Shown here piece by piece: positions 8,498 through 39,487 of a stretch of DNA of 64,000 nt. The stretch is taken from assembly GCF_019972835.1 (NCBI RefSeq), contig NZ_BPPB01000001.1:62001-126000 (forward strand), given 5' to 3'. The DNA comes from Lactobacillus laiwuensis. Lineage in GTDB: Bacteria; Bacillota; Bacilli; Lactobacillales; Lactobacillaceae. Within the stretch, counting starts at the first letter, position 1. Each line of letters begins with the position of its first letter. The translations under genes were made by a program, and so were the position numbers. The notes below the pieces were generated by a model that made no database searches, was not told where the DNA came from, and saw nothing but the letters and a program-made list of their open reading frames with translations.

Positions 8498-8504
8498 ATT
8501 AACT

Positions 8505-8722
8505 AATTACAAAGAGTAAGACTAGTAGCAGCGATCATTTAGTCAGAGAGACCTTTTTATTGAGCTGAAAGAAAGGTTTAAACGGAACTGTGAATTTCAT
8601 CTTACTAGTAGAATCTAATCCATTCCGGTATTCACCGTTATCGAAACATGAGTGTGGGCTTTCTGAGTCCAAACTAGGGTGGTACCGCGAAGCTTCGTCC
8701 CTTTAGGGATGAAGCTTTTTTG
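8505..8722 (+). promoter_or_regulatory. T-box leader responding to uncharged tRNA-Phe
   Basis: The conserved T-box AGGGTGGTACCGCG is at 8676-8689. It is followed by a terminator stem (AAGCTTCGTCCC against GGGATGAAGCTT) and a U-run. Stem I closes with AGTAAGA pairing TCTTACT around 8515 and 8601. The specifier is TTC (8596-8598) in AATTTCATC, a phenylalanine codon followed by the usual A. It controls pheS directly downstream. Confidence 0.93.
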
Positions 8723-37036: not shown

Positions 37037-37393
37037 TTATAACCAAACTTTTTCGTAAATTTTTTCATTAAAACCGCAAGTCAGTTTTTTACCTTCAACA
37101 ACCAGAGGCCTTTTTATTAGTTTTCCATTTTTGGACATCATGTCAGCGGCATCTGCAATTGACATACCTGCAATTTGATCTTTAAGGTGTAATTTGCGAT
37201 AGTCTTGACCGTGAGTGTTGAAAAAATATTTTAAGCCACGATCTTGATGCTGGCTCAGCCATTTTACTAGATCTTCTTTTTTTGGCGGTTCTTCGACCAA
37301 ATCTTGAAAATCGAACTCAACATTGTGCTCTGTCAGCCATTTTTGAGCAGCCCTTGAAGTAGAGCAACGCTTGTAACCATAGAATTTTATCAT
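37037..37393 (-). CDS. ArsC/Spx-family thioredoxin-fold protein with CxxS
   Basis: A 118-residue protein with the N-terminal FYGYKRCSTSRAAQKWL and the C-terminal KRPLVVEGKKLTCGF typical of ArsC/Spx/MgsR relatives. The redox motif is C-S-T-S, not the CxxC of Spx, so disulfide switching as in Spx is not possible at this site. It is closest to YusI-type proteins of unknown function. ATG at 37393 is chosen because AAGGAG lies 9 bases upstream; ATG at 37399 is only 3 bases from it. Confidence 0.85.
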   Translation of the reverse strand: MIKFYGYKRCSTSRAAQKWLTEHNVEFDFQDLVEEPPKKEDLVKWLSQHQDRGLKYFFNTHGQDYRKLHLKDQIAGMSIADAADMMSKNGKLIKRPLVVEGKKLTCGFNEKIYEKVWL

Positions 37394-37415
37394 ATTCATA
37401 CTCTCCTTTACTTCA

Positions 37416-37461: not shown

Positions 37462-38499
37462 CTAACTAAAATCCAGTTCAAAGTCTTTACTAGTAAAAAG
37501 ATGAACTTTGTTATTAAAAAGGTAATTCATTGCGATGCCTAATGCAATTGGTAACACGAAGAAAAGAACAGCAATTAATATAATATTAACAAAATTCGCT
37601 GGGCGATTTGCCATGGCGGCAATAGGGCCAATTAAACCTGAAAAGCCAAATCCTGCACTCATTGGTGTACCCTGAATTTGAAATACTGCACCTAAGGCAC
37701 CCATTATACCGGCATTAATTAAAAGCGGGATAAGTAATTTGGGATTAGTCATTAGATTAGCCATTTGCATTTTAGGAGAACCTAAGAAGTGGGCAATTGA
37801 TGTACCAAAACTATTTGATTTCCAACCGAAAACAGCTAAAGAGAAAGCAACGGCTGTGATACCTAAATTGGCAGAACCGGAAGCTATGCCAGAAATGCTT
37901 ATCGCGGTGGCAATACCGACTGAAGAAATAGGGGAAACTATAAGTAACCCAAAAACTATTCCCATTAGCATTCCCATAATAATTGGCTGCAATGCCGTCA
38001 ATTTTTCAACTCCGACACCGATCAAACTAGTTAATTGGCCAACAGGGATACGGGTAAGACAGCCAATTCCTCCAGCTATTAGCAGAACAAGTAATGGAAC
38101 TAATAGAATTGTGTATGCTTTCAATTTCTTACCAAAAAACAAAACTAAGCCGTAAGCTATCATAATAGTGATGGCAGTATTAATAACATCACCACTGCCC
38201 ATAACCGCGACTTTGCCTTTGTTCATCACAAAGTTGCCAGCTCCAGCTGTTGCCGCTAAAGCAATAGATGAAGTTTGGATTGGTGTTAATTTACCAGTCA
38301 TACCTACACAAACAGCACTGATTGCTGGCAACAATGCCGAAGCAAAGGTGGTTAAAGCTAAAATAAAGCTTAATTGGGGCATGCTTGGCAGCAATGCTTT
38401 TACCAGTTGGTTAATTAATGCTCCAGGAATTAAAGCAACAACAATACCTGTTGATAAGCCATTTAGTGTATCTAACGTAATCTTTTTTAAAGTATTCAT
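37462..38499 (-). CDS. Stand-alone PTS-EIIC-type membrane transporter (PTS_EIIC_2 family)
   Basis: A 345-residue, very hydrophobic protein with about ten membrane segments, recognisable as the PTS_EIIC_2 family (LNGLSTGIVVALIPGAL, AGNFVMNKGKVAVMGSGDVIN, NSFGTSIAHFLGSPKMQMANL). No EIIA or EIIB domain is fused or adjacent, so phosphotransfer is doubtful and a secondary transporter is possible. ATG at 38499 has GGGAGAG before it; the longer frame to 38595 runs through the attenuator terminator. The upstream aromatic leader peptide suggests regulation by Tyr, Phe or Trp supply, and so possible transport of aromatic compounds. That is an inference. Confidence 0.85.
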   Translation of the reverse strand: MNTLKKITLDTLNGLSTGIVVALIPGALINQLVKALLPSMPQLSFILALTTFASALLPAISAVCVGMTGKLTPIQTSSIALAATAGAGNFVMNKGKVAVMGSGDVINTAITIMIAYGLVLFFGKKLKAYTILLVPLLVLLIAGGIGCLTRIPVGQLTSLIGVGVEKLTALQPIIMGMLMGIVFGLLIVSPISSVGIATAISISGIASGSANLGITAVAFSLAVFGWKSNSFGTSIAHFLGSPKMQMANLMTNPKLLIPLLINAGIMGALGAVFQIQGTPMSAGFGFSGLIGPIAAMANRPANFVNIILIAVLFFVLPIALGIAMNYLFNNKVHLFTSKDFELDFS

Positions 38500-38510
38500 T
38501 TTACTCTCCC

Positions 38511-38549
38511 AATAAAAAAACTCACACAGATGACGACAACTGTGTGAGT
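38511..38549 (-). terminator. Attenuator terminator before the transporter
   Basis: On the minus strand ACTCACACAG-TTGTCGTCAT-CTGTGTGAGT forms a perfect 10-bp stem followed by seven T, ending 11 bases before the transporter start. It is in the leader, not after a gene. Confidence 0.92.
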
Positions 38550-38613
38550 CTTCAGAGAAGAAAGTACTTAAATCTTTAAAACACACAATTGTCATGAAGA
38601 TTGAACTGTGTGT
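38550..38613 (-). promoter_or_regulatory. Alternative antiterminator/protector helices of the aromatic leader
   Basis: Three competing segments are visible on the minus strand. Region 1, ACACACAGTT (38613-38604), pairs with region 2, AATTGTGTGT (38590-38581). Region 2, GACAATTGTGT (38593-38583), can instead pair with ACACAGTTGTC (38545-38535), the left arm of the terminator; each helix has one G-U pair. In addition CTTCAG inside the leader ORF (38656-38651) is complementary to CTGAAG (38555-38550), just before the terminator. Thus 1:2 permits termination and 2:3 prevents it, the standard attenuator logic. Confidence 0.75.
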
Positions 38614-38637
38614 CTAAGACAATGACAAACTAGGCAC

Positions 38638-38709
38638 TCAGATCAAATAGCTGAAGTACCAGAAATAATATTTAACTTGCGGTTGATTAATTTTTTTAAT
38701 TGCCGTCAT
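38638..38709 (-). CDS. Aromatic-rich leader peptide (23 residues)
   Basis: A short ORF beginning ATG at 38709 with GAGAGG 9 bases upstream, and ending in TGA. Residues 13-23 read KYYFWYFSYLI: four Tyr, two Phe and one Trp codons among eight consecutive codons. It is transcribed from a good promoter about 25 bases upstream, and followed by alternative hairpins and a terminator before the transporter. It looks like a control peptide whose translation senses aromatic aminoacyl-tRNA supply. The N-terminal half (MTAIKKINQPQV) is unremarkable. Confidence 0.82.
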   Translation of the reverse strand: MTAIKKINQPQVKYYFWYFSYLI

Positions 38710-38740
38710 AATCTTTACCTCTCATAAATATTTAAGCAAT

Positions 38741-38769
38741 ATCATAACTTAATAGTATAAAAAAAGCAA
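38741..38769 (-). promoter_or_regulatory. Promoter of the aromatic leader-transporter transcript
   Basis: On the minus strand TTGCTT (38769-38764) and TATGAT (38746-38741) are separated by exactly 17 bases. The predicted transcript start is about 38735, leaving a leader of about 235 bases. Confidence 0.75.
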
Positions 38770-39001: not shown

Positions 39002-39487
39002 GTGTTTATTATCTCACTGTTTATTAATTGCATCAGTTTTTTAGGAGATTGGTTGTTGTTTGCCTTTCCTCTTTATCAAGGATTAATGGAGCTTTATGAT
39101 TATGAATGGTTTTTGAAGGAATTTAACCAATCAAGTAAAGCACAACCAAAAATTTCTCCTTTGTACTGGATTATACCTATTGTAAAAATTTATCTTGAAA
39201 AACGGCGTGCAGTCAAAATTCTAGGTAGTATTATCAAAAATGAATCTGATTTGCGTACAGCTATGAGTTTTATTGATAAGGCTACTGCCTGGTACTTTGT
39301 TTCACTTGGTGGTTGGTTGAAGATGGTATCTTCTCTATATGAATTTATCGGAGAACTTCATGAAGACAGCATTTTATTGCTGGTTATCGGAACAGTTGTT
39401 TTAACTTTTTTGGGAATTTTCTCAGGTTATTACCGGTTAAATCCTAAACGGCAAAGGGTGTTGATATCAAAAATCAAGAAGAATTAG
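39002..39487 (+). CDS. Hypothetical small membrane protein
   Basis: 161 residues starting at GTG, with GAAAG a few bases upstream. Hydrophobic segments lie at about residues 1-25, 50-65 and 122-143, with basic loops (YLEKRRAVKIL, LNPKRQRVLISKIKKN). I do not recognise the family. It stands alone, with a terminator 10 bases after its stop codon. Confidence 0.6.
   Translation: MFIISLFINCISFLGDWLLFAFPLYQGLMELYDYEWFLKEFNQSSKAQPKISPLYWIIPIVKIYLEKRRAVKILGSIIKNESDLRTAMSFIDKATAWYFVSLGGWLKMVSSLYEFIGELHEDSILLLVIGTVVLTFLGIFSGYYRLNPKRQRVLISKIKKN

Follow-up and report, generated by a model that had tools for sequence, protein, structure and literature searches.

The locus studied here lies at positions 38511-38769 on the minus strand of the window, i.e., of the whole stretch of 64,000 nt of DNA that was analysed. 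In the order of transcription, it comprises a promoter-like sequence, a short open reading frame (ORF) with a Shine-Dalgarno-like ribosome site, a series of segments that can pair in alternative ways, an intrinsic terminator and finally the gene of a PTS_EIIC_2 membrane protein, which is presumed to be the controlled gene. The respective coordinates are listed in Table 1.

Table 1. Features of the leader and the gene that follows it, in window coordinates.
Feature	Coordinates	Strand	Basis or remark
Promoter-like TTGCTT-17-TATGAT	38741..38769	-	sequence; TTGCTT 38769-38764, TATGAT 38746-38741
Shine-Dalgarno-like GAGAGGT of the leader ORF	38717..38723	-	sequence, orthologue comparison
Leader ORF, 23 codons, MTAIKKINQPQVKYYFWYFSYLI*	38638..38709	-	codons 14-19 and 21 are aromatic
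Segment a, GGUACUU (codons Trp-Tyr-Phe), 5' strand of helix A	38654..38660	-	
Segment b, UUGAUCUG, last codons and stop codon, 5' strand of helix B	38639..38646	-	weak here: U-U mismatch
Segment c, GAGUGCC, overlaps the stop codon, 3' strand of helix A	38633..38639	-	
Region 1, ACACACAGUU, partner of region 2	38604..38613	-	
3' strand of helix B, CAGUUCAA, overlaps region 1	38601..38608	-	
Region 2, GACAAUUGUGUGU	38581..38593	-	with region 1 via 38590-38581, with region 3 via 38593-38582
GUACUU, second possible partner of segment c (helix P0)	38562..38567	-	seen in the genus
Region 3, CACACAGUUGUC, antiterminator strand	38535..38546	-	
Intrinsic terminator 3:4, seven T	38514..38548	-	stem 38548-38540 / 38529-38521; T 38520-38514
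PTS_EIIC_2 membrane protein (PF13303), 345 aa, presumed controlled gene	37462..38499	-	Pfam E 1.2e-89

The elements named in the preliminary description, i.e., a promoter with a spacing of 17, a 23-codon ORF with a ribosome site and seven aromatic codons out of eight, as well as a terminator with seven T before the PTS_EIIC_2 gene, are all present in the sequence. The aromatic residues within codons 14 to 21 are 4 Tyr, 2 Phe and 1 Trp. Region 1 starts 24 bases past the stop codon of the leader, as had been stated, and the distance from the T-run to the ATG of the transporter has to be corrected from 11 to 14 bases. The codon pattern for YYFW[FY]F has a single occurrence in the window's genome, namely at this leader.

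The promoter-like TTGCTT-17-TATGAT is absent from the list of a consensus-based scan because its TTGCTT matches only 3/6 consensus positions; a -10-like TATGAT/TATCAT box is seen again in the orthologues of the genus. With 20 promoter-like sites in the region, their number is not clearly above that of shuffled sequences (mean 13.4, sd 3.5). The terminator (38514-38548) was missed by a simple terminator scan, presumably since its loop exceeds the limit of the scan. The leader as such folds far better than its shuffles: we obtained a z-score of -4.07 for 38511-38745 and of -4.61 for 38511-38640, where most of the ORF is left out, with 0/200 shuffles as good in either case.

Alternative helices and their conservation within the genus

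The segments from Table 1 can be arranged into five putative helices, each of which would exclude its neighbour: A, B, 1:2, 2:3 (the antiterminator) and 3:4 (the terminator). Helix A would join the aromatic codons with the bases around and just after the stop codon, helix B the last codons plus the stop codon with region 1. A ribosome that awaits Phe-, Tyr- or Trp-tRNA would cover the 5' strand of helix A. While it stalls, the freed last codons and stop codon would bind region 1 (helix B), region 2 would pair with region 3 and transcription would read through. If aromatic amino acids are sufficient, the ribosome would reach the stop codon and leave, such that A and 1:2 could form, the terminator would fold and the gene would be off. 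That is, A and B, B and 1:2, 1:2 and 2:3 as well as 2:3 and 3:4 would be mutually exclusive, and a ribosome on the run would therefore lead to read-through and a departed ribosome to termination.

By our reading, helix B is how a stalled ribosome would act on region 1, a point that had been left open so far. A CTTCAG/CTGAAG helix inside the ORF had been suggested for transmitting the stall; we rejected this candidate, given that CTGAAG is found in just 3/16 aligned leaders and that CTTCAG is part of helix A.

Among 61 genomes of the genus, we found 16 close loci with 75-100% protein identity (L001-L016, where L002 is the window's own). All of them keep a short aromatic ORF that has a Shine-Dalgarno sequence, shows at least five aromatic residues in 8 codons and is located 197-219 bases before the matched gene start (16/16). 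The run itself varies between YYFWYF, IYFWYF-like, YYYWYF, YYFRYF and YYFGYF.

For the covariation analysis, an alignment of 16 leaders was used from which four near-identical loci were dropped and to which other loci of the genus (e.g., L036, L044) were added. Within these 16 leaders, 98.2% of the cells of helix A are paired, 88.5% of helix 1:2, 96.3% of helix 2:3 and 100% of helix 3:4. One pair is changed on both sides in helix A, one in 1:2, 6/12 in 2:3 and 5/9 in 3:4, i.e., double-sided changes are present in each of the three helices (1:2, 2:3, 3:4) whose covariation the preliminary description had put forward as a check.

We also combined the helices into the sets expected for the two states. 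The termination set (A, 1:2 and 3:4) shows 95.1% paired cells and 7 pairs changed on both sides, where 0/500 shuffles are as high for both measures. Respective values of the antitermination set (B and 2:3) are 93.0% and 7 pairs, reached by 4 and 2 of 500 shuffles; for this set, one of five covariation measures (further pair types) is not above the shuffles (192/500). When the partners are slid against each other, both sets show sharply less pairing and lower scores. Helix B is weak in the window, with a U-U mismatch, and lost in L013.

Segment c has a second possible partner downstream. All six pairs of this helix P0 (38562-38567 with 38634-38639) are present in 13/16 leaders of the genus, and P0 would favour termination.

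Leaders in other genera and the position of the ribosome

Within the Lactobacillaceae, 117/397 genomes have an orthologue of the PTS_EIIC_2 protein (E-value of 1e-60 or better), at 118 places. We read 87 of these places (L044-L130); the remainder are loci of the genus that were already included, or were left out. Aromatic leaders of very different sequence precede the transporter or its operon at 59/87 orthologue loci. Of these leaders, 30 are placed within the first 1.5-2 kb and 29 lie farther away, ahead of the operon's first gene; the follow-up upstream covered 33 loci (32 among the 87) and found leaders at 29. The 28/87 loci without a leader include six operon-type loci that were not followed upstream (L066, L072, L092, L093, L095, L116). 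At 22/87 loci, there is no leader within 1.5-2 kb upstream (about 3 kb for three).

The encoded peptides differ almost wholly yet stay aromatic, e.g., RYYFWFFRV, SFYFWFFRHDL, FYYFWFFHKCL, VFFWFWNSHS, NFWFWFFDN, SFYFYFAWYDNVSK and AYYYLYFNS. A comparison of homologous leaders had been proposed to decide whether the ORF and its aromatic codons are kept along with the terminator; where a leader is found, ORF, aromatic run and terminator indeed stay together while nearly all else changes. In other families of the order, leaders are present at 2/20 loci (L184, L191). Among these 20 loci, 13 adjoin an apparent dihydrolipoamide dehydrogenase gene, as judged by eye (for L172, Pfam reports a pyridine nucleotide-disulphide oxidoreductase), and seem to be another kind of locus. 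The leader is found in 22 genera, 20 of them from the window's family (g1, 3, 5, 6, 8, 9, 12, 13, 14, 17, 19, 20, 21, 23, 25, 27, 30, 31, 34, 38) and 2 from another (g85, g87). Named relatives are Bombilactobacillus (L042, L043) and Lentilactobacillus (L040).

We extracted 76 leaders (75 distinct ORFs), of which 46 were hand-picked as divergent representatives. The leaders L154 and L077 with weak runs were kept, and the terminator picked for L043 was replaced by hand. Terminators are found in 46/46 divergent leaders, and in 44/46 the Shine-Dalgarno match covers four or more bases, where the start codon was chosen by that match. On average, the ORF frame shows 5.35 aromatics per best 6 codons vs. 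1.80 and 1.80 in the other frames (46 leaders), a comparison that is partly circular since the leaders were selected for their run. Run codons include Phe in 46 leaders, Tyr in 43 and Trp in 28, with all three in 26.

The YYFW[FY]F codon pattern yields 46 matches vs. 9 for the pattern read backwards, and 17/30 inspected matches are leaders before an aminotransferase, transporter or transketolase. A looser pattern, [FY]Y[FY]W[FY]F, was discarded, with many chance matches among the matches listed. Genus g4 shows a conserved FYFWFFFA stretch before rpoB at 12 loci (L255-L260, L262-L265, L267, L268); it has no ATG, looks like RNA sequence and was not counted as a leader ORF. L017 and L019 have FFSFYYW leaders before aminotransferase-transporter operons, with a downstream architecture that is longer and different. 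Within viral contigs, no relative of the transporter was found.

Helices A and B change in step between genera, as judged by eye. Examples for helix A are ACUUUUGG..UUCCAU with gUGGAAgCCAAAAGU (L050) and UUCUGG..UUGACA with UGUCAA..CCAGAA (L040). For helix B, these are UAAUCUGUG/CACAGAUUA (L042), AGCAAUCUG/CAGAUUGCU (L043), GUAUCUAA/UUAGAUAC (L061) and GUGUUUG/CAAACAC (L144). We compared the pairing of cognate halves with that of other pairings for the 46 leaders. The own halves of helix A are among the best 5% of pairings in 20/46 leaders and in the better half in 41/46. The respective result for helix B is modest (7/46 and 31/46), with the fixed windows being too blunt for it.

To relate the fold to the position of the ribosome, the 46 divergent leaders were folded from the ribosome edge to the terminator loop, and the probability that region 3 is bound upstream was read out. 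The mean probability is 0.735 for a ribosome on the run, 0.603 for a ribosome at the stop codon and 0.593 without ribosome. Stalling on the run exceeds the stop position in 36/46 leaders; the difference is above 0.2 in 15 vs. 1 in the reverse direction. A ribosome placed 4-7 codons before the run results in 0.623, with the run position being higher in 33/45. The effect is seen with footprint edges of 10, 13 and 16 bases alike and disappears upon shuffling of the spacer (stall exceeds stop in 18, 26, 23, 28 and 23 of 46). In a stricter kinetic variant, where region 2 is free before region 3 is made, the effect is small (32/46, p 0.006; compared to no ribosome 28/46, p 0.08), and the p-values of the folding test are too small, as the sequences are related and their kinship is ignored. 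In L017, the order is the opposite of that predicted (0.44 when stalled, 0.71 at the stop codon).

As for the leader of the window itself, the probabilities at the point where region 3 has just been transcribed are 0.77 when stalled, 0.77 at the stop codon and 0.62 without ribosome. In terms of energy, 2:3 is favoured over 1:2 by 4.6-5.8 kcal/mol for an A-site on Tyr14 to Trp17, by 4.9 on Tyr18, 3.0 on Phe19, 1.9 on Ser20, 5.2 on Tyr21 and 3.8 kcal/mol at the stop codon, and without ribosome 1:2 is favoured over 2:3 by 4.7 kcal/mol. In the stalled state, an extended helix B (-9.6 kcal/mol) can form as long as region 2 has yet to be transcribed. Once region 2 is made and region 3 is not, 1:2 beats helix B even when the ribosome is stalled (-14.4 vs. 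-11.0). For the window, the folding model thus appears to separate stall from release, but not well from a ribosome on the stop codon.

We consider it very probable that the leader acts as a transcription attenuator mediated by the ribosome, which senses how much charged aromatic tRNA is available and turns the transporter gene on when any of these runs short. Direct analysis supports this in terms of anatomy, conservation, covariation and, computed across relatives, the dependence of the fold on ribosome position. That the ORF is translated, that ribosomes stall on it upon starvation and that the gene is then induced is what we infer for the living cell.

Instead of tRNA charging, the nascent peptide could be what is sensed. 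In such a TnaC-like arrest-peptide sensor, the aromatic peptide together with a free aromatic amino acid or aryl acid would stall the ribosome, and the response would be to excess, not shortage. We find an [LM]N motif before the run in 38/76 leaders, while 14.2 are expected from residue shuffling, and its Leu is encoded by TTG, TTA, CTG and CTT. These synonymous codons suggest that the peptide is under some selection and that the ORF is hence translated, which is in line with an arrest peptide, as are the enzymes of the operons, since they could also be catabolic. A sensor of this kind is nevertheless unlikely: the distance from run to stop codon ranges from 1 to 12 codons, F, Y and W interchange within the run (46 leaders), and antitermination is, on average, predicted to be stronger for a ribosome on the run than for one at the stop codon. 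That is, critical residues at a fixed distance from stall or stop, as in the TnaC type, are not found in these leaders. The variable distance along with interchangeable residues would rather fit sensing by codons, i.e., the attenuator.

Known leaders, T-boxes and the aspC motif

Leader-peptide control of amino acid genes is textbook knowledge for Gram-negatives and thought to be rare in Bacillota. In the his leader of Salmonella and E. coli, six segments A-F form five alternative helices with the terminator last, and a stalled ribosome removes the first helix. The window's leader resembles the his operon leader (RF00514) in its short ORF with a run of regulatory codons and in its chain of five helices that ends in a terminator. 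It differs in its aromatic codons, in its lineage and in that segment b, not c, binds region 1. Within the pheA, pheST and trp leaders of E. coli, the ribosome reads aromatic codons to set the terminator, for one amino acid each. In contrast, Phe, Tyr and Trp codons are mixed here and interchange between relatives, and the target genes are others. At the respective cut-offs, the leader of the window has no match to any Rfam family; the His, Trp and Phe leaders as well as the T-box are absent among the 7 matches up to an E-value of 10.

T-boxes likewise sense tRNA charging and had been named as the norm by which lactic acid bacteria sense aromatic amino acids. This holds for pheST, which is preceded by a T-box within the window (8503-8705), but not for the genes considered here: there is no T-box (RF00230) at the locus of the leader, and 0/60 scanned loci out of the 87 related ones show one in the stretches covered. 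For aromatic amino acids, both kinds of sensing, by T-box and by leader peptide, thus seem to be in use in the window's genome.

For some Bacillota, leader-peptide attenuation has been described with His codons before hisS-type or his genes; the accessible parts of these sources describe none for aromatic amino acids (PMC2965389, PMC9413887). That is, the kind of control is shared with our leader while the codons differ. A leucine-rich leader peptide is named in the title of a study on Staphylococcus aureus (PMC5794164). Within the open-licence literature, no description of an aromatic leader peptide in lactic acid bacteria was found among the matches listed; the aromatic leader attenuator is apparently widespread and undescribed there.

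The aspC motif (RF04313) ranks among the strong riboswitch candidates; its >1000 members precede aminotransferase genes and share few conserved nucleotides, and it was published without mention of an ORF in the accessible part of the source (Narunsky et al. 2024, PMC11109978). RF04313 matches 5/7 genomes of genus g30, 2 of them over the cut-off, and 0/14 controls. All 5 matches (L111-L114, L119) carry the ORF MTKIQTQSNKNYYWFTRFPA or its kin before an aminotransferase and PTS_EIIC_2. The match overlaps the ORF with its Tyr-Tyr-Trp-Phe codons and, by eye, can form the helices A, B, 1:2, 2:3 and 3:4. At the cut-off, RF04313 matches neither the window nor 59/60 scanned loci (only L111), and L112 and L114 match below it. 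In the ribosome test, L112 shows the expected difference between run and stop codon (0.72 vs. 0.45), and L111 shows none (0.66 at either position). No ribosome site was identified by Shine-Dalgarno match in L111 or L112. For g30, the aspC motif is apparently a leader-peptide attenuator of the kind described here.

One may turn this around and read the leader as a riboswitch or protein-bound RNA whose ORF is accidental, as proposed for the aspC motif. The strong conserved structure is compatible with this, and so is the motif's listing as a strong riboswitch candidate in the accessible part of its source. We regard such an RNA as very unlikely, since the aromatic codons stay in frame and mostly follow a ribosome site, even though almost nothing of the RNA sequence is kept from genus to genus. 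Furthermore, no conserved aptamer-like core is seen in the leaders, and the accessible text of the aspC authors itself notes few conserved nucleotides.

Presumably controlled genes and aromatic metabolism

The PTS_EIIC_2 protein of the window is 99-100% identical to those of L. kimbladii, L. kullabergensis and L. huangpiensis (bee-gut Lactobacillus). By sequence, it has no credible solved relative. Its predicted structure (pLDDT 85.9) resembles glucose-PTS IIC (Foldseek probability 1.00 for three entries; TM 0.44-0.54 by query length). No EIIA/EIIB partner adjoins the gene; its neighbours are the gene of an Spx/MgsR-family protein and a 161-aa ORF without family. Judging from the predicted fold, the transporter may be a PTS membrane domain turned plain carrier. 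The Spx/MgsR-family gene (37037-37399) is found on the same strand about 60 bases past the transporter, perhaps on a shared transcript, and the 161-aa ORF (39002-39487), for which neither Pfam nor NCBIfam gives a match, is divergent and upstream of the leader.

In many genera, the leader precedes an operon of a class I aminotransferase, a D-2-hydroxyacid dehydrogenase and PTS_EIIC_2, where Pfam assigns Aminotran_1_2 and 2-Hacid_dh to one tested example of each enzyme. The nearest NCBIfam models of the operon enzymes are below cut-off, for the aminotransferase narrowly (NF005588, 568.7 of 576 bits). Among the solved relatives are an aromatic aminotransferase and a D-2-hydroxyisocaproate dehydrogenase; aspartate aminotransferases and D-lactate dehydrogenases score higher.

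Two genera deviate in the gene that follows the leader. At 6/6 loci read from genus g38 (L270-L275), the leader is located before an aminotransferase (Pfam on one). No genome of g38 is among the holders of a PTS_EIIC_2 orthologue, and the stop codon is followed by a different hairpin, GTGTTTGTGCC..GGTGCAAACAC. A homologous leader is present in 7/8 genomes of genus g34 (L237-L243), before a transketolase in 7/7 cases (Pfam on two). This second kind of target would raise the aromatic precursor erythrose 4-phosphate.

In general, aminotransferases, D-2-hydroxyacid dehydrogenases and transketolases bear on the supply or turnover of aromatic amino acids. We infer that this also applies to the operon enzymes found here and, above all, to the transporter. 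Chorismate synthase was not found in the window's genome and is present in 14/14 control genomes; the organism should therefore need aromatic amino acids from outside. Its transporter would import an aromatic amino acid or the keto or hydroxy acid of one. The previous suggestion that the protein handles an aromatic amino acid, a precursor or a derivative is strengthened by the aminotransferase-dehydrogenase operons and the absence of chorismate synthase.

Elsewhere, the window's genome holds three aminotransferases (47-50% identity) and five D-2-hydroxyacid dehydrogenase matches, with no leader in about 1.5 kb upstream of these genes. An aromatic stretch in L227, about 1 kb before an aminotransferase with another gene in between, was judged to be a chance occurrence: it follows a T-run, lies in AT-rich sequence and has no ribosome site.

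The genes behind the leader also bear on the question of specificity. Many leader peptides of Bacillota sense antibiotics, and the leader might accordingly respond to slow translation in general (e.g., caused by ribosome-targeting antibiotics) with no amino acid specificity. Such a sensor is extremely unlikely, given that the run is aromatic in all 22 genera with a leader and that the genes downstream are amino-acid, transporter and transketolase genes, not resistance genes. A constitutive leader, i.e., a plain terminator with a fortuitous small ORF, would agree with the thermodynamic model that barely separates stall from stop in the window, but can practically be dismissed, since covariation is seen within the genus for the alternative helices and since the same arrangement precedes genes of linked function in 22 genera.

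Besides the attenuator at the window's locus, there is a wider, joint reading of these observations, which we put forward as a tentative possibility. All leaders would represent one homologous, Lactobacillales-wide attenuator that senses the aromatic pool with exchangeable Phe, Tyr and Trp codons. It would govern a so far unrecognised salvage route: aryl-lactates or aryl-pyruvates would enter through the orphan PTS_EIIC_2 protein and be oxidised by the D-2-hydroxyacid dehydrogenase, and the aminotransferase would make the amino acid. In one genus, it would have moved to transketolase for erythrose-4-phosphate, and the aspC class, mostly known from environmental DNA, would be this attenuator.

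With its presence in 22 genera of lactic acid bacteria, such a relay would constitute a regulon in organisms of food as well as of bee and human guts. For a published riboswitch candidate that has more than 1000 members, it would provide an explanation that can be tested. The orphan transporter family, in turn, would gain a testable role in aromatic metabolism and a link to phenyllactate-type chemistry.
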